This document shows positions 8,334 through 33,805 of a DNA stretch of 35,940 nucleotides, piece after piece (position 1 is the stretch's first letter; every line of letters starts with the position of its first letter). This DNA is from Bryobacteraceae bacterium (lineage in GTDB: Bacteria; Acidobacteriota; Terriglobia; Bryobacterales; Bryobacteraceae): positions 1 through 35,940 of the forward strand of contig JASIAM010000330.1 of NCBI GenBank assembly GCA_030041985.1. The letters run 5' to 3'. The position numbers and the translations under genes were made by a program. The notes under the pieces are model-generated. The model did not search any database. It had not been told where the DNA came from and saw nothing but the letters and a program-made list of their open reading frames with translations.

Positions 8334-9122
8334 ATGGATAACCCGGCTGCTCCTGCCGAATCCCTCAATATCGAGCAGTTGCTGCACCTCCATACTCTCA
8401 CGAAAGAGGTTGCCAAGCTCTGCCAGAAGCAACTCCGCGGCTACCTCGACACCATAGCCCTTCTTTTCCGGCCCCGCCGCATGCTCGGCGACGCTATGGA
8501 AGGCGCGGAGCGCGAGGCCGGCGGCGGCTCCGAGCGCACCATCGCGGAACTGCGCGAGCTGTACCGGAAAGCCGCTCCCCGTCCGTTCGATCTCCGGCCG
8601 GAACTGACTTTTCCCCTCGAATCTGTCTCTACGCAGATGCAGCTTTATGAGTGGGAGTACCTGCATCAAACCAAGACTGAGCGCGGCTGGCGGAGCATTA
8701 AGGTCTCCTCGCCGCTCACGTGGGTGATCACTTACTCTTCGCATTACTCACTTCCCATGCTGCGCCAAGTGCTTGCCGGGCAGGAAGAGCGGGATCCCGA
8801 AGCGGTGCGTGCGTTTGTGCTGCGCGCCTGTCTCATTCATCTCCACTTTCAGAAATTTCCGGCCATCGCCGAGCTGTTGGCAGGCTTGCGCTATAACGTA
8901 GAGGTCCGTCAATCCCCGGAGACGGGGGACCTGCCGCTGGTCACTGTGTCGGCGCCCTTCGCGACGGTTCGCCCTCCCGATAGCCTGGTGACGATTGCGA
9001 GCGCTCTGGCGGGCGGCGCCAGCTTCGCCGAAGTGCTCGATCTCACTACCGTGCACAATCTCAAGGACCCCTTACGCGAGCAGATTACCACTATCTTCCA
9101 GAAGCAGGGACAGGAGCTATAG
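8334..9122 (+). CDS. Unknown protein paired with TssK
   Basis: I do not recognise this 262-residue soluble protein. It starts at ATG 8334, with GAGG about ten bases upstream. There is no signal peptide or membrane segment. Visible features are a helical N-terminal half containing a basic patch (FRPRRML), a Gly-rich linker near residue 65, and a leucine/histidine-rich helical stretch around residues 145-175. The C-terminal part mixes strands and helices (LPLVTVSAPFATVRPPDSLVTIASAL). The stop is seven bases before the tssK start, so the two form one transcription unit and probably one functional unit. By context it may be a baseplate partner or accessory of a type VI-like contractile system; that is inference from position only. 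Confidence 0.7.
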   Translation: MDNPAAPAESLNIEQLLHLHTLTKEVAKLCQKQLRGYLDTIALLFRPRRMLGDAMEGAEREAGGGSERTIAELRELYRKAAPRPFDLRPELTFPLESVSTQMQLYEWEYLHQTKTERGWRSIKVSSPLTWVITYSSHYSLPMLRQVLAGQEERDPEAVRAFVLRACLIHLHFQKFPAIAELLAGLRYNVEVRQSPETGDLPLVTVSAPFATVRPPDSLVTIASALAGGASFAEVLDLTTVHNLKDPLREQITTIFQKQGQEL

Positions 9123-9129
9123 CACGGGT

Positions 9130-10515
9130 ATGCGGAACCGCCATCGCGTCGTTTGGACCAAGGGGATGTTTCTCACTCCCCAACAATTCCAGACACAGGA
9201 CAACTTCTTCGAGGCCGCGCTGCAGTTTCGCTTCGCGGCTTCGTGCTTCGCCAACTGGGGAGTCACCAGCTTGGATATCGATGCCGAAGCCCTGCAAAAC
9301 GGGCTTTTCCGTCTGGCCGGCTGCAGCGGGATTATGCCGGACGGCGAATCTTTCGATATGCCGGACATCGATGATCTGCCTCCCTCGCGCGCCGTGGCAG
9401 GGCACTTTCCGCCCACTCAGGAATCGGTGGACGTCTTCCTGGGAATTCCGGAGAGCCGTCCGCGTGCGCGCAATGTCAGCATTCCGGGGCGCGGCATCTC
9501 TGCCAGCAACCCGGCTGAATCCGCCGCCGGCCCTCCGATGACCCGCTACCTTGCCGAAACACGCATGTTCACGGATGACAATACGGGCGACGACGAGAAG
9601 CCCGTGCAGGTGGCTCGCCGCACGTTTCGCATTCTGTTCGGCGATGATTACCGCGACGGTTACTCGACGCTGCGTATCGCGCAAGTGATCCGGAACGCCG
9701 CCGGCATCCCCATCTTGAACCCGCGCTTCGTCGCGCCTTGCCTGAGCCTGGCCGCCAGCCCGTATCTGAATTCGCTGCTGCGCCGGCAAATCGAGATTCT
9801 CGCTACGAAGAGCGGTTCTCTCTCGGGTCCGCGGCGCCAGCGCGGCAAAATCACGGCTGAATTCTCCCCCTCCGAGACCGCCAATTTCTGGCTTCTGCAC
9901 ACGGTCAATTCGTACCTGCCGGAACTCAAGCACATCTGGAAGGTGCGCAAAGGCCACCCGGAGCCGGCGTATGTGGCTATGCTGCGCCTGGCCGGGGCTC
10001 TCGCCACCTTCTCGCTCGAAGCGCGTCCCGAGAATCTCCCCGATTACGACCACGACGACCTGGGCCGCTGCTTCACCCTCCTCGACGAGAAGATCCGAGA
10101 CCTGATGGAAACCGTGATCCCCTCCAAGTTCATCGCCATTCCGCTCGATCTGCGGGACCGCTTCATTTGGGGCGGCACGGTAACCGAAGATCGCTATTTC
10201 CGGGACTCCCAGTTCTTCCTCGCGATCAGCGCCAAAATCGGTGTCGACGACCTCATCCGCAAGGTGCCGCAACTGGTCAAGATCTCTTCCAACGAAGACA
10301 TCCAGCGGCTGATCCGCAACGCGCTTCCCGGCATCACTCTGCGCCACACGCCCGTGCCTCCGGCGGCCATCCCGATGAAGCTCGACAGCCAGTATTTTTC
10401 GCTCAACCAGAGCGGGGAATTGTGGAACATTATGACCCTCTCGCGGCAGATCGCTGTTCATGTGCCGGGCGAAATTGTCGAACCCAGGATGGAAATTCTG
10501 ATCGTCCTGGAATAA
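9130..10515 (+). CDS. tssK: Type VI secretion baseplate subunit TssK (ImpJ/VasE)
   Basis: TssK links the cytoplasmic baseplate to the membrane complex in type VI secretion. The 461-residue protein has the family hallmark at its N-terminus, VVWTKGMFLTPQQFQTQDNFFE (residues about 7-28), and the central HTVNSYLPELKH stretch followed by an LAGALATFS helix. It also has the terminal strand pattern EIVEPRMEILIVLE. I placed the start at ATG 9130; an upstream frame to 8995 would overlap the preceding gene by 128 bases and add residues unlike TssK. No other tss gene is in the window: on the right it meets a convergent dehalogenase gene, so this is a detached TssK locus. Confidence 0.88.
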   Translation: MRNRHRVVWTKGMFLTPQQFQTQDNFFEAALQFRFAASCFANWGVTSLDIDAEALQNGLFRLAGCSGIMPDGESFDMPDIDDLPPSRAVAGHFPPTQESVDVFLGIPESRPRARNVSIPGRGISASNPAESAAGPPMTRYLAETRMFTDDNTGDDEKPVQVARRTFRILFGDDYRDGYSTLRIAQVIRNAAGIPILNPRFVAPCLSLAASPYLNSLLRRQIEILATKSGSLSGPRRQRGKITAEFSPSETANFWLLHTVNSYLPELKHIWKVRKGHPEPAYVAMLRLAGALATFSLEARPENLPDYDHDDLGRCFTLLDEKIRDLMETVIPSKFIAIPLDLRDRFIWGGTVTEDRYFRDSQFFLAISAKIGVDDLIRKVPQLVKISSNEDIQRLIRNALPGITLRHTPVPPAAIPMKLDSQYFSLNQSGELWNIMTLSRQIAVHVPGEIVEPRMEILIVLE

Positions 10516-19646: not shown

Positions 19647-20492
19647 CTATCGTACGAATTCGACTTCCACGCGGTGCGGAATCAGTCCGGCTTCGTGGCC
19701 CATGTCCAGCAGCCGCTGCGCCGCGCGAGGCACAATGTCTCCGCCATCCAGCGTGAAGTGATTGACGTACATGCCCACGAATTTTTCGGCTAGAGGCGTT
19801 TCGAGGTCGCGCGCGAACTGGAGCGCGTAGGTGAGAGCTTCATCGCGGTTGTCGAGCGCGTACTGAATGCTTTCGCGCAGCAGGCGGCAGCACTCGCTTT
19901 TGATCGCCGGATCGAGCGACCGCAACAGCACGTTGGCGCCCAGTGGCAGCGGGAGCGCGAAGCAGGTCTTGAACCAGCGGCCCAAATCCACCACGCGATG
20001 GAGGCCCTGTTTATCGAAGTTCAATTGGGCCTCATGAATGATCAGGCCGGCGTCTACAGAGCGTTCCCGCACGGCGTCGGTAATCTTGTCGAAAGGCGTA
20101 ACCACAGCCTCAAAATCCGGCTGGAACAGCTTTGCCGCGAGGTACGCCGAGGTCATCCTGCCCGGAACTGCAATGCGCTTGCCCTTGAGATCCTCCGGTT
20201 CCATAGGGCGAGCCGCGACCATCATGGGGCCATAACCGTCACCAATGCTCGACCCGGTGGACATCAGCACATACTTGTCGGCAACGTAGGCGTACGCGTG
20301 GAAGGAAATCGCACTCAAATCATATTGCCCCTGCATGGCCGCCCGGTTCAACGTCTCGATATCCTGAAGCACATGGCGAAACGTGACCTTCGGAGAGCGG
20401 ACCTTCTTGGTAGCGAGTCCGTAGAACATGAATGCATCATCTGAATCCGGACTGTGGGCTGCAACAATTTCCAGGGGAGAAACCAGGGTCAT
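19647..20492 (-). CDS. mqnD: 1,4-dihydroxy-6-naphthoate synthase (futalosine menaquinone pathway)
   Basis: MqnD converts cyclic dehypoxanthinyl futalosine to 1,4-dihydroxy-6-naphthoate on the way to menaquinone. The 281-residue protein has the family landmark AHSPDSDDAFMFYGL near the N-terminus, then DIETLNRAA, DLSAISFHAYAYV, GKRIAVPGRMTSAYL, and DAGLIIHEAQL. The fold is that of a periplasmic binding protein, but there is no signal peptide. I chose the ATG at 20492, which places SPDSDDAF about 14 residues in; an in-frame start at 20531 is possible. Other mqn genes are not in the window. Its presence says the organism uses menaquinone made by the futalosine route. Confidence 0.88.
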   Translation of the reverse strand: MTLVSPLEIVAAHSPDSDDAFMFYGLATKKVRSPKVTFRHVLQDIETLNRAAMQGQYDLSAISFHAYAYVADKYVLMSTGSSIGDGYGPMMVAARPMEPEDLKGKRIAVPGRMTSAYLAAKLFQPDFEAVVTPFDKITDAVRERSVDAGLIIHEAQLNFDKQGLHRVVDLGRWFKTCFALPLPLGANVLLRSLDPAIKSECCRLLRESIQYALDNRDEALTYALQFARDLETPLAEKFVGMYVNHFTLDGGDIVPRAAQRLLDMGHEAGLIPHRVEVEFVR

Positions 20493-20975
20493 AGGCGCCG
20501 TTCTCTCAGTGTACACTAACGCGCTCACCAACCCTTAGCTGATTAAACTTTGGAAGGAAAAATCGAAGGGCGGTTGCCATCAAGGACTGCAACGCTCGGA
20601 AGAATTGTAGACCATCATCACTCATGCGCATCACGCGCCACGTGGACATTATCCACGCCACTTAGAAATCCGATGGTTCAGCCTTCCGTACTACCTGCTC
20701 GCATTCCGGTGGAAAACCGCCCCATTTCTGGCCCGGTTCTATTTAGCCACCTCCCGCCAGTCCCGAAAGACCAGCTCATCGATTACAGTCTGCCTCCGAT
20801 TAAGAGCCTTGTCAATAGTTACCGACATATTAACTGATGTGATTTGACTATGTTCTAACGAACGTTGCTCCGGTGAAAAAAGATGCGTCCGGAACGGCTT
20901 CCCGCCTATAAGAAAGCCCCCGCTATGGGGCGCAAGGTGTTGCAACCTGGCGGCCGCTCGATCATCATTCACCAC
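20493..20975. other. 483-base intergenic stretch between mqnD and DinB
   Basis: This divergent gap is more AT-rich near 20790-20870 than its surroundings and probably holds the DinB promoter. A short open frame at 20550-20837 has no family resemblance, no ribosome site and unusual composition, so I do not call it. A small palindrome, GTGGA-CATTA-TCCAC, lies near 20641-20657. No RNA gene or mobile element is recognised. Confidence 0.5.
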
Positions 20976-26490: not shown

Positions 26491-26520
26491 ATTGTAACAA
26501 GGATTGGACGAGGCAGACAA
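26491..26520 (-). promoter_or_regulatory. Sigma-70-type promoter for the PEP-CTERM gene
   Basis: On the minus strand TTGTCT (26520-26515), an 18-base spacer, then TACAAT (26496-26491). The GTG start follows 46 bases later. Confidence 0.55.
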
Positions 26521-26611
26521 TAGTTTTCTAACCGGCAATTTCGATTTAAATACTAATAGGACCGGTACTTAACCAGCGAAATGATGGGAGGTTGGCAGTT
26601 TAACCGAGGTT

Positions 26612-26989
26612 CTACAAGCCCGAATGCCGCTTGAATATCTGCGGCAGGTTTTGCGAAAACGCGGAACGCGCCATGACCATATCGCAGCCGGCCGCCTGCG
26701 CCTGCTGCTTGAGGTCCACCTGCACATGCGACAGATATCCGATCAGGCTGATCCCCTTGGTGAGCGGCTTGCTCTTCAACTGGGTGATCAATTCGAGCGG
26801 CTGAACAGCATCGAAGTTGAGGTCGAAGATGATCAGGGACGGTTTTTCGCCGGCTTTTTCCAGCACGAGGTTCCCCTCTTTGACAAATTCGAGATCGAGG
26901 CCATTGCGCTTGGCAGCCTCCGATAGCTTGACCGAGAAGAACAGATCGTTCACCACGGCCAGGACTCGTTTCGATCCATGGCTCAGCAT
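26612..26989 (-). CDS. Divergent receiver-like (CheY-fold) protein
   Basis: The 125-residue protein has the length and strand pattern of a stand-alone receiver domain: VLAVVNDLFF, SLIIFDLNFD (D56 at the phosphoacceptor position), ISLIGYLSHV, and CDMVMARSAF. Compared with CheY, only one acidic residue is seen at the first strand (D15), and the conserved Lys-Pro of the last loop is Arg-Ser. It may therefore be a poorly or non-phosphorylated regulator. It lies 92 bases downstream of the molybdenum-hydroxylase operon on the same strand, and could be read with it. Confidence 0.6.
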   Translation of the reverse strand: MLSHGSKRVLAVVNDLFFSVKLSEAAKRNGLDLEFVKEGNLVLEKAGEKPSLIIFDLNFDAVQPLELITQLKSKPLTKGISLIGYLSHVQVDLKQQAQAAGCDMVMARSAFSQNLPQIFKRHSGL

Positions 26990-27081
26990 ATGAAAAGCGG
27001 TTTGGTACCTGTGCCCCTTTTTTGATAAGAACGAGGAGGAGGGAGATTTCTGATTCTAACACGGAACGGAAACGCCGCTTT

Positions 27082-27519
27082 TCACGTCTGGTCCTGCTCT
27101 CCATTGCCGCTTACCTGGTTCGCGACTCCGCTCTGTGCCTTCAAAATCTCATCAATCAAAAACAGATCCGTCAGCAGTGCCCGCAGGTGAATCGAAGCGT
27201 TCAAACTGTCGATGAGCTGCGAACTGAGGGAAGGCTGGGACAGCACTAACTCCAGAGCGGCGCGCGAATCGGCTGTGTCGCGGGCCATCACGGCGAGAAA
27301 TGCCTCGTACCGGCCGGCTGGCTCACAGTTGCCTTCTTTTACCGCCGAGGCGCACACGCCTGCCAATTCCGAGAGCGCGTCCACCGCCTGCGCCAGCAGG
27401 TGGCGTAACTGGCCGCCCGACTGGCTGCCCTGGTCGCCGGGCAGGCCCTGGGCCGCATAGGCCAGCATGAACTCATAACATTCCTCGATGGCGTCACAGC
27501 ACTCTTTCAGGCTGGCCAT
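27082..27519 (-). CDS. Unknown helical protein at the end of the molybdenum-hydroxylase operon
   Basis: I do not recognise this 145-residue protein. It is almost wholly helical by eye, begins MASLKECCDAIEECYEF with three closely spaced cysteines, has one more in VCASAVKEGNCEP (two Cys), and has no signal or membrane segment. Its start lies four bases after the cytochrome b stop, so co-transcription with the enzyme genes is nearly sure. A maturation or cofactor-handling role would fit the place and the cysteines, but that is inference. A four-helix bundle (ferritin-like) is another possibility. Confidence 0.6.
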   Translation of the reverse strand: MASLKECCDAIEECYEFMLAYAAQGLPGDQGSQSGGQLRHLLAQAVDALSELAGVCASAVKEGNCEPAGRYEAFLAVMARDTADSRAALELVLSQPSLSSQLIDSLNASIHLRALLTDLFLIDEILKAQSGVANQVSGNGEQDQT

Positions 27520-27523
27520 CGAC

Positions 27524-28372
27524 TCAGGCGGTCATCCTACGTTCCGATGATGAGGAAGCGGCGTCCACTGCCCAGCGCTGCGGGTCATGGTGTTCGAGAT
27601 AGTGCTCGCGGTCCAGAGTGCCGACGATCATGGATTTGGTGATCACCAGTTTTTCCGGCCGCACAGCGAAATACACGTGCACCATCACCAGCGCGATCAG
27701 GCCGATACCTGCAGCGCCGTGCAGCACGTACATCAGGCCCCAGGTCATGTCGCCGAACAGGTAGGGGTTGCGCGGCAGAATGCCGGTGCGCACGCGGAAC
27801 ATCATGAAGACGCCGGTCAGTATAGCCGCCAAACCGGCCAGCACAATCACGCCGTGGTACATCTTGTTTTCGAGCGGATACTTGGCAAAACGCCGCGGCG
27901 GCGGCGCGTCCTGCCCGAGTGCGCGTTTGAGGCGCCGCGAGGCATCCTCCATATCGGCTTTGTCCGGCCAGATCGATCGGAAATCCAGCCAGAAGCTGGC
28001 ATGCACGATGTGGAACAGAATGGATGCCGTAAGCACAAGGCCCGCGATCCAGTGGTAAGTCACCCACGGGAACTGAATGCCCACTTTGGGAAGGAACGCG
28101 GTGATCAGCAGCGCCAACATGGCCGCGGCCATAATCCAATGAAACAGGCGCGCCGCCAGCGAGTGCCTGGGGACGCGTTGCGGAATGCGAGCGGCCACAT
28201 CGGGCGGCGTGACGCCTTCAAACACCTCCGCCTTGGCGAAGTAGCGGACCCAAATGGCATGCCCCACCAGGAACAACAGCCCCGCGATGGCCGCCACCCA
28301 AATCAGAAAGAACGAGATGTGAATGGGGATGTCTTCACCCCAGGGACTCTTGGCCCACTCGACTAAGCCCAC
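27524..28372 (-). CDS. Membrane cytochrome b subunit (formate-dehydrogenase-gamma/cytochrome b561-like)
   Basis: This 282-residue inner-membrane protein has about five hydrophobic helices. Likely haem-ligand histidines are in RLFHWIMAA, TYHWIAGLVL, LFHIVHASF, MYHGVIVLAG, VLHGAAGIG and ALVMVHVYFA. This resembles dihaem cytochrome b subunits that pass electrons from periplasmic dehydrogenases to quinone. It starts at GTG 28372, inside the end of the FAD gene (overlap of 10 bases), with GGAGG just upstream, so it is translationally coupled to it. Its place after the three hydroxylase subunits suggests it anchors that enzyme and feeds the menaquinone pool. Confidence 0.85.
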   Translation of the reverse strand: MGLVEWAKSPWGEDIPIHISFFLIWVAAIAGLLFLVGHAIWVRYFAKAEVFEGVTPPDVAARIPQRVPRHSLAARLFHWIMAAAMLALLITAFLPKVGIQFPWVTYHWIAGLVLTASILFHIVHASFWLDFRSIWPDKADMEDASRRLKRALGQDAPPPRRFAKYPLENKMYHGVIVLAGLAAILTGVFMMFRVRTGILPRNPYLFGDMTWGLMYVLHGAAGIGLIALVMVHVYFAVRPEKLVITKSMIVGTLDREHYLEHHDPQRWAVDAASSSSERRMTA

Positions 28373-29376
28373 GTTGCCTCCGGAACTCCGCGAATGGCGC
28401 GCTTTACCAAGTTGCGCATCAGCGGAACTTTGTAGCCGTTATAACGCAGCGGCGCCGCCCCTTCGATGGCCAACTTTCCCGCCATCTCGGCCGTAGCTTC
28501 GTCGCGCGGCTTGCCGCGGACGGCGTCTTCCACCTTCTGCAAACGCAGCGGATGCGCGGCCACGCCGTTCACCGCGATGCGAATCCGCTCGATATGCCCG
28601 CCGGAAAAAACCGCGGCCGAGGCGACATTGATCAGCGGAAAATCCCAAACGTTGCGGTCGCGGACCTTTTCGAAATAGAACTCGGTGCCCGCCCAATCCC
28701 CCGGAATGCGGATCGCGGTCAGCAGGTCGCCGGGCTTCAATATGGTCATGCGCGTGATATCGGTGCCGGGGCCGATGAAGTAATCCTCGGCGTTCACCAC
28801 ACGCTCTCCGCGCGAATTGCGGATCACCATCTTGGCGTCGAGCGCAATCAGCGCGGGCGCCGTGTCGGAGGGGTTCACGGCCACGCAGCGGTCAGCGCCC
28901 AGAATGGCGTGCTCGCGATTGATGGCAGTGGGCGTATCGGCAAAGCAGATGTTGCCGCCCGCGCGATAGCATTTCCAGCCGCCGCGGTAATACCAGCAGC
29001 GCGTATCCTGCGAGATGTTGCCGCCGATAGTGCCCTGGTTGCGGATCTGCGGGGAAGCAGCGGCTTCGGCGCCCGTAGAAAGGATGCTGAACTTTTCGCG
29101 CACCAGCGGATGGCGCACCACTTCGGTCAGCGTGGTCATCGCGCCGATTTCCAGGCCCCCGTTGAGAGCACGCACGCCGGTGAGCTCTTTGACCTGGCTC
29201 AGATCGACCACCACGCCGGGACGTTTGATGCGGTCCTTGAGCCAATCGAAGCTGTCGAGTCCCCCGGCTAATACCCAGGCATCTTTTCGGTAGCGGCCGA
29301 GCAGCCCCAGTGCATCGTCAGTACTTGCCGGCTGAAAGAGTTCGAATGCCGGCATGATGTCACGAATGATCGCCAT
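28363..29376 (-). CDS. FAD-binding subunit of molybdenum hydroxylase, with predicted [4Fe-4S] loop
   Basis: The 337-residue medium subunit carries FAD between the iron-sulphur subunit and its acceptor. Motifs are VLAGGLDSFDWLKDR and NQGTIGGNISQ (FAD contacts). Between them and the C-terminal domain is an insertion with four cysteines (RCWYYR, WKCYRAGG, NICFAD, DRCVAV) matching in order the extra cluster loop of PaoB/YagS and of 4-hydroxybenzoyl-CoA reductase beta, which hold a [4Fe-4S] cluster. The ATG at 29376 has AAGGAG upstream. It lies 18 bases after the Mo subunit. The cluster loop would allow electrons to leave through a route other than NAD. Confidence 0.88.
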   Translation of the reverse strand: MAIIRDIMPAFELFQPASTDDALGLLGRYRKDAWVLAGGLDSFDWLKDRIKRPGVVVDLSQVKELTGVRALNGGLEIGAMTTLTEVVRHPLVREKFSILSTGAEAAASPQIRNQGTIGGNISQDTRCWYYRGGWKCYRAGGNICFADTPTAINREHAILGADRCVAVNPSDTAPALIALDAKMVIRNSRGERVVNAEDYFIGPGTDITRMTILKPGDLLTAIRIPGDWAGTEFYFEKVRDRNVWDFPLINVASAAVFSGGHIERIRIAVNGVAAHPLRLQKVEDAVRGKPRDEATAEMAGKLAIEGAAPLRYNGYKVPLMRNLVKRAIRGVPEATWA

Positions 29377-29394
29377 ATGCGGTTCTCCTTCTGG

Positions 29395-31932
29395 CTAGAT
29401 GTGGGCCGTCAGCCCCTCGGTAGCCGGCCTGCCCGCTTCGAGGGAAGCGAGAATGACATCGGCGGTCACGGGCGCGCGGCGGAACACTTCATCGCCCAGC
29501 GCGTCCGAAAGTGCGTTGATAATGGCCATGCAGCCCGCGCCCACAGGCGGCTCGCCGATGCCGCGCGCGCCAATGGGTGTTTCGGGATCGGGGATATCGA
29601 GCGCGGCCCATTGCATGTGTTCGGGTGCATCCAGAATGGTCGGCGGTTTGTTGTGATGAAAGCGCTTGGCCAGCGGCAAGCCGTAATGCTGATCGTAGAC
29701 CCACTTCTGGCCAATGGCGTGGCCAATCCCCAGCATGGAACGGCCCAGAATCTGCCCGCCAAGCGCTTTCGGATGAATGATCGTGCCCACGTCCGCAACA
29801 CCCAGGTAGTCGAGGATGCGGTATTTGCCGGTTTCCAGGTCCACTTCCACTTCCGCGAAGCCGGCAACATAAGAATGCGTCTGTCCGTCGCGCTTCATAG
29901 TGTCGCGGGCCACGGCCACCAGGCCCTGTCCCACAAACGCTTGCGCCGAACGAACGGTCATCGCATTGACGCCGTTGGGCAGCTCATGGCCATCGTAAAT
30001 GCCGCCTAGTTCGATGGCACGCTTGGCCGCCTGCGCCAGCGTCATTCCGGCCCCTCCGCCCTTGCGAAATACGCGCTCGTTGGCCACTACGTAGTCTTCC
30101 GGCCTGCCGCCCAGATCCTTTGCCGCGATCTGCTGCAGTTTATCCACCGCATCCATCGCAACCGCGTAGGCAGCGCGCGTGTGTGCGTGTGTAGTCTGGC
30201 TGCCGCCCGAAGGACAGCTCCACGGGAGATTTTTCGCCGTGCTGCCCCAGGTGATCTCGCATTTCTCCCAAGGCACCCCGAGGATTTCGGCTGTCACGCG
30301 ATGGCAGTCGCTGACGGATTCGGTCCCCAGGTTGCCGATTCCGGACTGGATGTACAGCTTGCCATCCGGCCTGATCACGAAAAGCCCATCAAAGCCGATG
30401 GAGCCACCCACAAAGCAACTGGTGGCGACGCCGATGCCGCGCACCTTCGAGCCGCTGCGCTTGGGCTGCCCTTTGCGCTTCTCCCAGTCGAACAGCTCCA
30501 CGCCGCGGTCGAGCGCTTGATGCACATACGCGCTCGTTACATAGAGACGTTTGCCTTCCTTATCGGGAGGGCCGATGGGCGCTTTTCCCACCGGCGCATT
30601 CACGCGGTGAATGGCCACCTGGTCAACACCCAGTTTGCGCGATGCCTTGGCCATAATCGGTTCCATAAGCGCAATGCCCTGGAACCCGCCCGGCTGGCTT
30701 TGCGAGAGCCGCGGGGGGGTATTGGTCAGCACCGTGACCCCGCGCCACCGCATGGCGGGCGGCTGGTACATCAGCGAAACCATGCGGCCGGACTGGTTGG
30801 CATCGCCCTGCGGATCGTAAGGGCCGTTGTCCATGATCACGTACATGTCGATGGCCGTGATCCGGCCTTCCTTCGTAAATCCCGCCTTGATCCGCCCGTG
30901 CAGACTGGGCCGGGCGCGTCCGATGAAATGCTCTTCCTCCCGGCTGACCCGCATCATCACCGGCGCGCCTACCTTGCGCGAAAGTATCGCGGGGATGATC
31001 GCCGAAATCGAACTGGTGATCTTGCTCCCAAATCCTCCACCCGTATACTCGCTGATCACCACGACCTTATCCAGGTCGGGCCGCCCTTTCTCATCCACCA
31101 AGCCCAGCCAGCGCGCAATCGCGGGCGCGGTCTGCGACACACTCTGGGTGGAACAGTGAACGTAGACCTTCCCGTTCTGCCAATAAGCCATGGCCGAGCG
31201 GGTTTCGAGAGTCTGGTGGCTGGTGTTGGGCGTAACGAAGGTTTCATCCAGCACTAGCGCGGCATTCTTCAGTCCGCCTTCCCAGTCGCCGAACGACCAG
31301 GAAGGTTCCGTGTCATGACCCATCGGCAGGCGGCCTTCGTTATACTCGGCGAAATCGGCCTCCGTCCACTTCACCTCTTTTACCTGCGGCGGCGGCGCGA
31401 GTTGGCCGGCAGCCACCACCGGCCGTATCCAGACATTGCCCTCTACACGGGCATTTGGTGATCCCGGCCGCAGGCTTACCAGCGGATCGACGACGTGCGG
31501 CAGCCGTTCGATATCGAGTTTGATCTTCTCGATCGCTTCCGCGCACGTAAGCTCATCCACCGCACAGACGGCTAAAATCGGCTCGCCCTGGTAGACGGGT
31601 TCATTGGTGAGGCCGCGTTCGCCCAACGGATTCGCCGGAATCCTCTGGCCCAGGTCCGTCAACGCGTCCGCCGGTTTCGGCATGTTGTCGGCCGTCAGGA
31701 TGGCTTTCACTCCGGGCATCCGCAACGCCTCGCTCGTATCGATATTGCGGATGATCCCGTGGGGAACCGGGCTCAGCAAGAGCTTGGCGAACAGCATGCC
31801 ATCTGCCCGGTAATCTTCGGCGTACTTGGCGCGGCCGGTCACCTTGGCGATCAGATCCGGTGTGGTGTAGTCCTTCCCGAGCAGTTTGTAGGGAGGATGG
31901 CTCGGAAGCGCGTTCTCAATTTTCGCAGCCAT
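29395..31932 (-). CDS. Molybdopterin-binding subunit of a xanthine-dehydrogenase-family hydroxylase
   Basis: This 845-residue large subunit binds the molybdopterin-cytosine-dinucleotide-type cofactor and hydroxylates a carbon (aldehyde or N-heterocycle) with water-derived oxygen. Its features are a xanthine-dehydrogenase alpha-subunit N-terminal domain (VTGRAKYAEDYRADGMLFAK), the EYTGGGFGSK loop of the cofactor site, GNLGTESVSD, and the catalytic-glutamate motif GARGIGEPPVGAG near the C-terminus. Length is a little above that of CoxL/PaoC (about 730-800). It has no signal peptide and would be exported with the Tat-tagged small subunit. AGGAGG lies within the end of the small-subunit gene, so the two are coupled. 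The substrate is not identifiable. Confidence 0.93.
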   Translation of the reverse strand: MAAKIENALPSHPPYKLLGKDYTTPDLIAKVTGRAKYAEDYRADGMLFAKLLLSPVPHGIIRNIDTSEALRMPGVKAILTADNMPKPADALTDLGQRIPANPLGERGLTNEPVYQGEPILAVCAVDELTCAEAIEKIKLDIERLPHVVDPLVSLRPGSPNARVEGNVWIRPVVAAGQLAPPPQVKEVKWTEADFAEYNEGRLPMGHDTEPSWSFGDWEGGLKNAALVLDETFVTPNTSHQTLETRSAMAYWQNGKVYVHCSTQSVSQTAPAIARWLGLVDEKGRPDLDKVVVISEYTGGGFGSKITSSISAIIPAILSRKVGAPVMMRVSREEEHFIGRARPSLHGRIKAGFTKEGRITAIDMYVIMDNGPYDPQGDANQSGRMVSLMYQPPAMRWRGVTVLTNTPPRLSQSQPGGFQGIALMEPIMAKASRKLGVDQVAIHRVNAPVGKAPIGPPDKEGKRLYVTSAYVHQALDRGVELFDWEKRKGQPKRSGSKVRGIGVATSCFVGGSIGFDGLFVIRPDGKLYIQSGIGNLGTESVSDCHRVTAEILGVPWEKCEITWGSTAKNLPWSCPSGGSQTTHAHTRAAYAVAMDAVDKLQQIAAKDLGGRPEDYVVANERVFRKGGGAGMTLAQAAKRAIELGGIYDGHELPNGVNAMTVRSAQAFVGQGLVAVARDTMKRDGQTHSYVAGFAEVEVDLETGKYRILDYLGVADVGTIIHPKALGGQILGRSMLGIGHAIGQKWVYDQHYGLPLAKRFHHNKPPTILDAPEHMQWAALDIPDPETPIGARGIGEPPVGAGCMAIINALSDALGDEVFRRAPVTADVILASLEAGRPATEGLTAHI

Positions 31933-31934
31933 GA

Positions 31935-32597
31935 TTAAGCCCTCCTGGCGTGTGTTACGCCACTCACACTCGTGCCTTTGGGCGTACGCAGGAGATCCGC
32001 GCCCCGAAGCATAGCGGTGAGGATCTTATCGTAATCCTGGCACCGGCAAAGGTTGCCCGAGATGCCGTGCGCCAGCTCCGCGCGCGTGGGTTGGGGATTC
32101 ACTTTCAAAAATCCCACAGTGGCCATAATGTAGCCCGACATACAGAACGCGCACTGGAAACCCTGTTCGTCGAGTACGCCCTGCTGCACCGGGTGCAAAG
32201 TGCCATCCGCCGCAGCCAGGCCTTCGATGGTCAGAATCTTTTTGCCGCGAACCGTGTGTGTGAGCACCGAACAGGAGTAATGCGGAACGTCATCGATGAG
32301 GACTGTACAGGCGCCGCATTCGGAGCGGTCACAGCCAAGTTTGGTCCCGGTAAGGCCTAGCTTGTAGCGCAGCGTGGTGGCCAGCGTTTCCTGTTTCATC
32401 ACGTCCACCCGCCGCTGCTGGCCATTCACGTTCAGGGTGAGCAGCCGCTCGACAGAACCGGGAGCCGATACTTGCGCGTGCACTGAGGAGGCGCGGAACA
32501 GATAGCCCGCCGACGACACGGAGCCTGCCGCGATCACGCCCTTAATCACGTCGCGTCTCGATAACGCCTTCGAAGTGGGTTCCGGAAAATCTTCCAT
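31935..32597 (-). CDS. Tat-exported [2Fe-2S] subunit of molybdenum hydroxylase
   Basis: The 220-residue small subunit has a Tat signal with SRRDVIKGVIAAG (residues about 13-25) and a cut near VHAQ. It then has the plant-type [2Fe-2S] domain (GCDRSECGACTV and the later Cys in YSCSVL) and the helical [2Fe-2S] domain (FQCAFCMSGY, GNLCRCQDY). Both clusters are complete. It should carry the folded complex through the Tat system, as PaoA does for PaoABC in E. coli. It is first in the operon, behind a near-consensus promoter, and has GAGGTGATCC upstream of its ATG. Confidence 0.94.
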   Translation of the reverse strand: MEDFPEPTSKALSRRDVIKGVIAAGSVSSAGYLFRASSVHAQVSAPGSVERLLTLNVNGQQRRVDVMKQETLATTLRYKLGLTGTKLGCDRSECGACTVLIDDVPHYSCSVLTHTVRGKKILTIEGLAAADGTLHPVQQGVLDEQGFQCAFCMSGYIMATVGFLKVNPQPTRAELAHGISGNLCRCQDYDKILTAMLRGADLLRTPKGTSVSGVTHARRA

Positions 32598-32641
32598 AGG
32601 ATCACCTCATTTATCTTCGAAACCTGGTACTAGATTGCGAG

Positions 32642-32670
32642 ATTATATGCCTTCGGCGTAGCAATGTCGA
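32642..32670 (-). promoter_or_regulatory. Near-consensus sigma-70 promoter of the molybdenum-hydroxylase operon
   Basis: On the minus strand TCGACA (32670-32665), a spacer of exactly 17 bases, then TATAAT (32647-32642). The first ATG is 44 bases further on. Five of six -35 positions and all six -10 positions match consensus. Confidence 0.7.
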
Positions 32671-32731
32671 GGGCAAACGCGTGGTGGGCGTGGTGTCTCC
32701 ACGGCGCTGCCGCCCGCGGTGTCATCTCACA

Positions 32732-33106
32732 TCAGCTTAGTGCGGACCGGATGAGGATCTTCAGCCCGTTCCACAAAATCTGGACACCAATACAAACCAG
32801 GATGAACGAAGAGATGCGGACGATAACGTTCATAGCCGAATCTCCGATTCTGCGCGCGACCTCTTCCGCGAAGCGGTAACTCACGTAAATGGATGCCGCA
32901 ATCAGAACCGATCCCAGTAACATCCCTGCGATTAGCGGCCACCGCCACTCGGCGCCTTGCGGCCGGTTGGCGCCGACCGTAATCGCTACCGAAATCGACC
33001 CCGGCCCGACAGTCAGCGGCAGCGTCAACGGATAGAACGCCTGCCGCGTGTAATCCGATTGGTTTACTGCCCAGCTCTCGCTCGAGCTGCCTTTCGGTGA
33101 TGGCAA
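32732..33106 (-). pseudogene. MarC-family membrane protein, truncated at the N-terminus
   Basis: The frame gives up to 124 residues, starting at a TTG. From QAFYPLTLPLTVGPGSISVA onward it matches the C-terminal half of MarC/YhgN proteins, with three helices to the end (IVRISSFILVCIGVQILWNG). MarC proteins are about 200 residues, so the first helices are gone. The lead MPSPKGSSSESWAVNQ matches the linker but is not preceded by membrane segments: the same frame is closed by TGA at 33173-33175 and no hydrophobic helices are encoded in between. The left-over upstream sequence is repeat-rich. A functional short form is possible but unlikely. Confidence 0.65.
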
Positions 33107-33188
33107 TACGAGTAACTGGAATTTTCGGGCGGTCGTGGTAAACGGCGGGAGCCAACGCGCCGCGAAGCGGCGTCAGTTTGCCTTTTTA

Positions 33189-33299
33189 GCTGATAGCTGG
33201 CCTGTGACCGCCGCCCAATCCTTTTGTTTTCAGCCTGAATTTTCGGCGGCGAGTCACAGGTTATTCAATCCGGCGCCGCCGGAGGCCGGGCTGATAGCT
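33189..33299. repeat. Inverted repeat flanked by GCTGATAGCT direct repeats, next to truncated marC
   Basis: The 10-mer GCTGATAGCT is at 33189-33198 and 33290-33299. Between them, arms 33201-33215 and 33245-33260 form a near-perfect inverted repeat (CCTGTGAC...GTCACAGG, with one extra base). The size and structure look like a small non-autonomous element or REP-type unit. There is no transposase. Confidence 0.6.
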
Positions 33300-33334
33300 G
33301 ATGGCTGAAAGCTCGCGTCCGGACTGCCTTTGGC

Positions 33335-33805
33335 CTAGATATAAGCCAGTAATCGCCCCGCCGTAATTGCTCCCAACCAGCAAATCAGCGCGGCCCACGC
33401 CAGCGGCTTGGCGCTCTCCGGTAGCGAGCCATCGGGACCGAGACTGTGGAACACCCTGCTCCGCGTGAGCCGGAGCACGGCTACACCCACGAAGATGAAA
33501 ATCATCTTGATGTAGAACGTGGGATCGATCAGCCTGGTGGATGCACTTGCCATCAGCAGAACCGTTCCGGTGATCGCATTCAGCCAGAACCCGCCCCACA
33601 TCAGCGGATATAAGCGCTCCAGCGGTTGTACGGCGGTCTTGGGCGAAACTCCCAAGAGCCGCAGGCTGATAACCGAACTGCCGCCCGCCACCACAGCCAT
33701 GCCGATGACGTGCAACAACAGAATCGTGGGATACGCCAAGACGGATGGGGATTCGTGCACCCATGCCACGAAGCCGATCTGTTCGATCGATTCCAAGAAA
33801 TGCAT
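33335..33805 (-). CDS. DUF6644-like four-helix membrane protein
   Basis: I chose the ATG at 33805 (156 residues), because residues upstream lie in the neighbouring small gene. AAGGGG precedes it. About four membrane helices are seen, with HVIGMAVVAGG and NAITGTVLLM as landmarks. The same order (H-hydrophobic-G, RLLG, NxxTG, K in the next helix) appears in the C-terminal half of the 311-residue protein two genes upstream, so the two share a domain, probably DUF6644. The conserved histidine might bind haem or metal. Function unknown. Confidence 0.75.
   Translation of the reverse strand: MHFLESIEQIGFVAWVHESPSVLAYPTILLLHVIGMAVVAGGSSVISLRLLGVSPKTAVQPLERLYPLMWGGFWLNAITGTVLLMASASTRLIDPTFYIKMIFIFVGVAVLRLTRSRVFHSLGPDGSLPESAKPLAWAALICWLGAITAGRLLAYI

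Follow-up and report, generated by a model that had tools for sequence, protein, structure and literature searches.

The membrane-bound aldehyde dehydrogenase of acetic acid bacteria (PDB 8gy3) is a xanthine-oxidase-family enzyme that delivers electrons to the membrane quinone and uses a c-type cytochrome subunit. 4-Hydroxybenzoyl-CoA reductase reportedly carries an extra [4Fe-4S] cluster, and we know of no twin-arginine translocation (Tat) signal or cytochrome b in that enzyme. Escherichia coli PaoABC, in the passages of PMC3958847 that describe it, has a Tat leader on its small subunit, prefers aromatic aldehydes and had an electron acceptor still unidentified as of that report, and PMC6147048 records xanthine-oxidase-family members fused to c-type cytochrome domains. 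Here, we describe a five-gene operon (S, L, M, B and X) on a 35,940-nucleotide stretch of DNA, hereafter the window, from a Bryobacteraceae bacterium of the Acidobacteriota (GenBank assembly GCA_030041985.1, contig JASIAM010000330.1, positions 1 to 35,940 of the forward strand). The operon pairs a PaoABC-like enzyme (S, L and M) with a cytochrome (B) resembling FdnI, the cytochrome b556 of formate dehydrogenase-N, and with a small helical protein (X).

The explanation we favor, at a probability of roughly 0.6, is that S-L-M-B encodes an exported molybdenum hydroxylase that feeds its own cytochrome and thereby menaquinone, with X as an assembly factor. S-L-M would form a periplasmic hydroxylase of the xanthine oxidase family, exported in the folded state through the Tat pathway by the signal on S, and its substrate would be an aldehyde or an N-heterocycle. 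Electrons would pass from molybdenum through two [2Fe-2S] clusters, flavin adenine dinucleotide (FAD) and a PaoB-type [4Fe-4S] cluster in M to B, whose hemes would move them across the membrane from its periplasmic to its cytoplasmic side, where menaquinone would be reduced. The unit would then combine the membrane portion of formate dehydrogenase-N with catalytic subunits resembling PaoABC. X would serve as a cytoplasmic assembly factor for B and the exported enzyme, on the pattern of NarJ, rather than as a redox subunit. The genes are arranged as follows.

31935-32597, minus strand: S, small subunit with two [2Fe-2S] domains and a Tat signal peptide (SRRDVIKGV)
29395-31932, minus strand: L, large molybdenum-cofactor subunit of the xanthine oxidase family with catalytic-type Glu794
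28363-29376, minus strand: M, FAD subunit with a PaoB-type four-cysteine insertion
28885-28998, minus strand: stretch of M coding for C127 to C164 (C127, C136, C144, C164), a probable [4Fe-4S] site
27524-28372, minus strand: B, FdnI-like b-type cytochrome with a GTG start, overlapping M, and five predicted transmembrane helices
27082-27519, minus strand: X, 145 residues, predicted soluble helical bundle, no family match

The operon thus spans 32597 to 27082, with five genes on the minus strand. By their coordinates, S and L are 2 nucleotides (nt) apart, L and M 18 nt and B and X 4 nt, and M and B overlap by 10 nt; an earlier note on this DNA had described five tightly coupled genes, and their positions proved right.

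We counted conservation over distinct proteins (identical ones taken once) with at least 40% identity and 85% coverage, uncut by contig ends and free of stops and N. S matched the Pfam families Fer2/Fer2_2, and its eight cluster cysteines were invariant in 72/72 proteins. A twin-arginine motif was present in 71/72 S proteins, the exception (locus L088; L, G, C and f labels for loci, genomes, contigs and families are our own) reading GRRRF, and in none of 77 L, 88 M, 95 B and 73 X proteins, in agreement with the earlier note, which had placed the Tat signal on the 2Fe-2S subunit only. L matched Ald_Xan_dh_C/MoCoBD_1/MoCoBD_2. Its catalytic-type Glu794, aligned with the GVGE of PaoC, was kept in 77/77 proteins; however, the position of PaoC Arg440 is V508 in L and varies among V, H, S and T in relatives, and L has an unusual stretch, R-x-x-Q-[SR]-x-P-G-x-x-Q. 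As judged from these residues, the substrate pocket of L probably differs from that of PaoABC.

M matched FAD_binding_5/CO_deh_flav_C. Its C127, C136, C144 and C164 align one-to-one with C119, C129, C138 and C157 of E. coli PaoB, which has exactly these four cysteines, and all four were invariant in 88/88 distinct M proteins. This bears out the four-cysteine site of the PaoB type that had been noted in the FAD subunit, and by homology with PaoB the loop is a probable [4Fe-4S] site. PaoABC and S-L-M share all three kinds of subunit, the four PaoB cysteines and a Tat signal confined to the small subunit. They differ in that the gene order is S-L-M here and S-M-L (paoABC) in E. coli, the operon contains no PaoD/XdhC gene and adds a cytochrome b and X, Arg440 is replaced, and L scored 236.1 bits against a PaoC NCBIfam equivalog cut-off of 1180 bits.

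Among PDB sequences, 4-hydroxybenzoyl-CoA reductase was the best match of L and S and the second of M; one of the four M cysteines had no counterpart in its alignment. The acetic acid bacterial enzyme 8gy3 matched S at E 2.1e-25 and L distantly (E 8.4e-11). Carbon monoxide dehydrogenase (CODH) subunits were also among the PDB matches of S, L and M, and the best CODH chains outscored PaoA for S and PaoB for M, as would suit a relative of aerobic CODH (cox) that oxidizes CO. However, both 4-hydroxybenzoyl-CoA reductase and PaoC matched L better than CODH did, and M has the PaoB-type cysteines. The CoxL signatures, which we take to be AYxCSFR in form I and AYRGAGR in form II at a position in the sequence that we likewise assume, are missing; the segment presumed equivalent is RLSQSQPGGFQG, with Q411 in 76/77 proteins. 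We give CO oxidation almost no weight.

B scored over the cut-off of Pfam PF01292 (Ni_hydr_CYTB; prokaryotic cytochrome b561), at 79.2 versus 30.1 bits (E 4.1e-22). An AlphaFold model built from alignment A2 (47 of the 70 listed B proteins) had a mean predicted local distance difference test (pLDDT) value of 87.4 and long helices at residues 22-44, 72-97, 103-127, 167-193 and 208-237. FdnI (1kqf_C) was the only Foldseek match of this model below 1e-3 (E 1.9e-6), and residues 62-281 superposed on it with a VIA Z of 15.5 and a root-mean-square deviation of 4.1 over 199 aligned residues, so that the predicted fold covers nearly the whole FdnI chain. The dedicated cytochrome b that the earlier note had proposed is supported, with a predicted fold of the FdnI type and a match to PF01292. 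B differs from FdnI in having one extra N-terminal transmembrane helix and in being encoded with a xanthine-oxidase-family enzyme rather than with FdnGH.

We take H18, H57, H155 and H169 to be the heme ligands of FdnI. Three of them have aligned counterparts in B: H18 pairs with H78, H155 with H218 and H169 with H232, the last two pairings being found in a second comparison as well. H78 was kept in 94/95 distinct B proteins and H107, H218 and H232 in 95/95, and five further histidines of B (H38, H70, H121, H124 and H173) were also invariant (95/95), more than the two hemes of FdnI need. H107 and H121 are 14 residues apart, as are H218 and H232. These residues could hold a third heme or form a quinone site. 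The loops of B carry 20 Lys and Arg in three alternate loops versus 3 in the others, which points to an N-out/C-in topology; this charge distribution would put H107 and H218 toward the periplasmic side, with H232, H121 and H124 toward the cytoplasmic side. We hold tentatively, at somewhat less than an even chance, that the operon specifies a respiratory complex in which a membrane module of the formate dehydrogenase-N type is joined to a hydroxylase, so that hydroxylation in the periplasm and menaquinone reduction on the cytoplasmic side make up a proton-motive redox loop, with X as a new family of helical chaperones; given the five extra histidines, such a complex may possibly hold more than two hemes.

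X is closely tied to B. A scan with B of a genome collection (84,980 species), which recovers close relatives only and does not imply absence elsewhere, gave 76 loci, all titled as belonging to the Acidobacteriota group. In 72 of the 74 loci that could be assessed, X lay directly after B (interrupted in L079); L062 and L091 had room and no X, and L098 and L099, cut just after B, were left unjudged. The median B-X gap was -11 nt (47 loci, with a heuristic choice of start) and the median M-B gap -13 nt (62 loci). Where the sequence upstream of B exceeded 4.6 kb (56 loci), S, L and M were all present in 53, S and M only in two (L090 and L091) and M only in one. The genomes of L090 and L091 carry an L copy elsewhere (58% and 61%, respectively), so the electron-transfer set can be parted from its catalytic subunit; genome G202 has several L copies. 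We also noticed L genes of this clade without an adjacent M in L112, L113 and L114, where the same genomes carry S-M-B or S-L-M-B elsewhere; L114 begins near a contig end, and a preceding S is possible there.

In 396 sampled Acidobacteriota genomes that had not been chosen by B, X occurred in 26, which makes the operon a minority trait within the phylum; these fell in nine families (f1, f4, f6, f27, f32, f33, f47, f49 and f57). X adjoined B in 25 of the 26, the last (G286) holding a broken remnant of 44 residues, and at E 1e-20 B matched at 43 places distributed over 40 genomes. In the window's own order, X was matched in 23 of 200 genomes and had B beside it in 22 (a short B match only in L009); the remaining match, in G118 (E 0.00987, 30%), is probably due to chance. 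M matches in the 396 genomes separated into a close group of 48 full-length places (at least 60%), with two fragments, and a separate group of at most 45%. In a hand tally of coordinates, B was present at 38 of the 48 places and B with X at 22; B stood without X at 15, of which 14 were in one genus (f50/g149) and one was a second copy in G230, and in G514 B was cut by the end of a 3607-base contig. B is the usual companion of the enzyme and X accompanies B, though neither is strictly required. A plasmid collection gave no match to B or X, and its L matches were below 60%.

The earlier note had suggested looking for the five-gene order across Acidobacteriota, and the order does recur in several families of the phylum. 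It had also named absence of B and X from most related loci as a point that would count against its reading; this does not apply to B (38/48) and applies in part to X (22/48). Overall, the interpretation given in that note is supported in part.

X itself, which the earlier note had called a cysteine-bearing protein of no known family, indeed gave no Pfam or NCBIfam match over cut-off. Searching 60 members against Pfam gave weak, scattered matches with no NarJ, TorD or DmsD family among the 18 listed, and a profile search of PDB sequences returned chance-level rows only. The cysteines offer no functional clue: none is conserved, the best being C14 in 54/73 proteins. Binding of a metal or heme by X was considered and set aside, as X has one invariant histidine (H111) and no invariant cysteine. 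A model from alignment A1 (60 of the 73 X proteins, from the window and 72 loci) had a pLDDT of 90.3 and showed four long helices (4-23, 33-62, 68-93 and 110-136) and one short one. No segment reached transmembrane grade, with a maximum 19-residue hydropathy of 1.3. Foldseek gave nothing below 1e-3 (the flagellar export chaperone 1orj at E 0.41 only). The 50 VIA matches listed had Z of 10.0-11.3, under the tool's level for helical bundles, the best lying within about 1 of many unrelated bundles; they include talin, vinculin, cytochrome b562, hemerythrin-like proteins, receptor fusions and designed bundles. Weak helix-turn-helix matches (HTH_13 in 10/60 members, best E 0.011; HTH_1 in the window protein, E 0.1) could suggest that X regulates the operon. 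However, the window match to HTH_1 is far under the Pfam cut-off (13 versus 26.6 bits) and the model consists of long helices rather than a compact helix-turn-helix, and we regard a regulator as very unlikely.

The surroundings of X in relatives point toward maturation. X has an IscU-like gene directly behind it in the same orientation at 19 of the 76 loci (L034, L067-L073, L076-L078, L080, L082-L084 and L086-L089) and also in L116; beyond it, on the opposite strand, 17 of those 19 loci carry an XdhC gene and 15 a MocA gene, all three names having been assigned by eye from sequence. In the one IscU-like gene inspected, the third cluster cysteine, which we take to be a usual residue of IscU, is seemingly missing, and the protein is thus possibly not a scaffold of the standard kind. 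In the window's genome, an unlinked XdhC-MocA pair sits on contig C197, the site of the only XdhC_CoxI match found in that genome. TatC was also found, as were two PF02621 (MqnA/MqnD) matches, one of them at 19692-20462 of the window within an open reading frame (ORF) at 19647-20531 on the minus strand. Menaquinone as the acceptor would fit this gene content.

Several observations weigh against the reading that we favor. FdnI H57 is unpaired in the automatic alignment, where B H107 falls on Q41, although the context of B H107xxxG resembles that of FdnI H57xxxG; B stays under the formate dehydrogenase gamma cut-off (NCBIfam TIGR01583; 46.6 versus 115.85 bits), and a B profile search of PDB sequences did not recover FdnI. 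This shortfall, together with the missed PaoC equivalog score and the absence of Arg440 and paoD, led us to file the system under neither PaoABC nor formate dehydrogenase, and we assign it to the xanthine oxidase family and PF01292 only. The window operon has no IscU, MocA or XdhC neighbors; the argument from maturation genes draws on relatives alone. Mirror-tree comparisons were inconsistent and were not used as evidence: X-B gave the largest partial correlation of X with 23 loci (0.48), whereas with 47 loci X-S was strongest (0.27, top partner in 195/300 resamplings) and X-B stood at 0.17. The 14 genomes of genus f50/g149 keep B without X, so X is dispensable there. Finally, 10 of the 48 close M places had no B at E 1e-20, and in G361 there was nearly 4 kb of room downstream; the enzyme can therefore exist without B.

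That last point would suit an ordinary soluble periplasmic aldehyde oxidoreductase, with B serving another dehydrogenase or acting as an optional docking site. In the nine of these ten loci that we examined, neither B nor X was found, and S-L-M was complete in eight (L203-L210), with M only in L211. Divergent solitary B copies also exist (L213 and L214), L214 (6011-9338) lying beside a gene that looks by eye like a pyrroloquinoline quinone (PQQ) dehydrogenase, and E. coli paoABCD has no adjacent cytochrome b gene. However, M and B typically overlap, as the median gap given above shows, and B adjoins M at most of the close places, and a soluble enzyme seems to us improbable. Separately, we noticed that in L203 (2815-9951) the S-L-M genes precede a lipoprotein-like ORF of 140 residues and then another L gene, so that two catalytic subunits go with a single S-M pair.

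The link between X and B in position and occurrence would also be expected if X were a permanent subunit on the cytoplasmic side of the B complex, for example covering a quinone site or the tail of B. The predicted cytoplasmic C-terminal tail of B has residues invariant in 47 sequences (R238, P239, E240, K241, T245, M248, G251 and W267), and 11 of the 21 invariant positions of X (60 sequences) are concentrated in residues 101-121. Against this, the f50/g149 genomes retain B without X, and maturation genes adjoin X in 19 loci. We consider a permanent subunit unlikely, if the most serious of the alternatives. X is probably a cytoplasmic assembly factor: we favor this role, judging mainly from the genes around X in relatives, because X is also predicted to be a helical protein of the cytoplasm and is tied to B, and because its cysteines are unconserved. 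NarJ, DmsD and TorD are all-helical assembly factors of molybdenum enzymes; X has no sequence match to them and resembles them in its proposed role only. NarJ is described in PMC10609526 as crucial for full maturation of the cytochrome NarI and for the timing of membrane anchoring.

Two further elements lie 5' of S.

32642-32670, minus strand: sigma-70-like promoter TCGACA-17-TATAAT, 5' of the operon
32600-32609, minus strand: Shine-Dalgarno-like GAGGTGATC before S, read directly from the sequence

The promoter, which the earlier note had seen, is present with 11/12 consensus matches, and 44 nt separate its end from the start codon of S. When the 150 nt preceding S were shuffled in blocks of dinucleotides, which makes a rough control, 0/1000 shuffles scored as high. 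In 26500-33500, one site was found against a shuffle mean of 2.5, so the site count is not above chance. Relative L025 has the same two hexamers upstream of S. Conservation is otherwise weak: only L025 scored at least 10 among 53 relatives, whose best scores averaged 7.2 (shuffles, 6.2), and an average of 45% of the shuffles did as well. The Shine-Dalgarno-like GAGGTGATC was identical in 5/8 relatives examined, with GAGGTGAC in 2/8. Rfam gave no match within the window.

Around the operon, we recognized by eye a receiver-like ORF (26612-26989, minus strand) that lies some 90 nt past X with the same orientation and is not among the neighbors common to relatives' loci, and a MarC-like membrane protein ORF (32732-33106, minus strand) just upstream, with an apparently shortened N-terminus. 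TssL/DotU-like and TssK-like ORFs, of the type VI secretion baseplate type, lie at 8334-10515 on the plus strand; no other type VI secretion genes were recognized near them in this by-eye look.

The catalytic and membrane modules are each of a known kind. Neither a xanthine-oxidase-family enzyme combined with an FdnI-like cytochrome b nor family X was found among the matches listed from open-licence PMC literature, and in that sense we came upon no description of a PaoABC-like enzyme coupled with a cytochrome of the FdnI type. With the acceptor of PaoABC given as unidentified in the passages of PMC3958847 noted above, the operon suggests a direct way, open to test, in which oxidation in the periplasm could feed respiration, and it brings to light a conserved family of proteins, X, whose genetic partner is clear.

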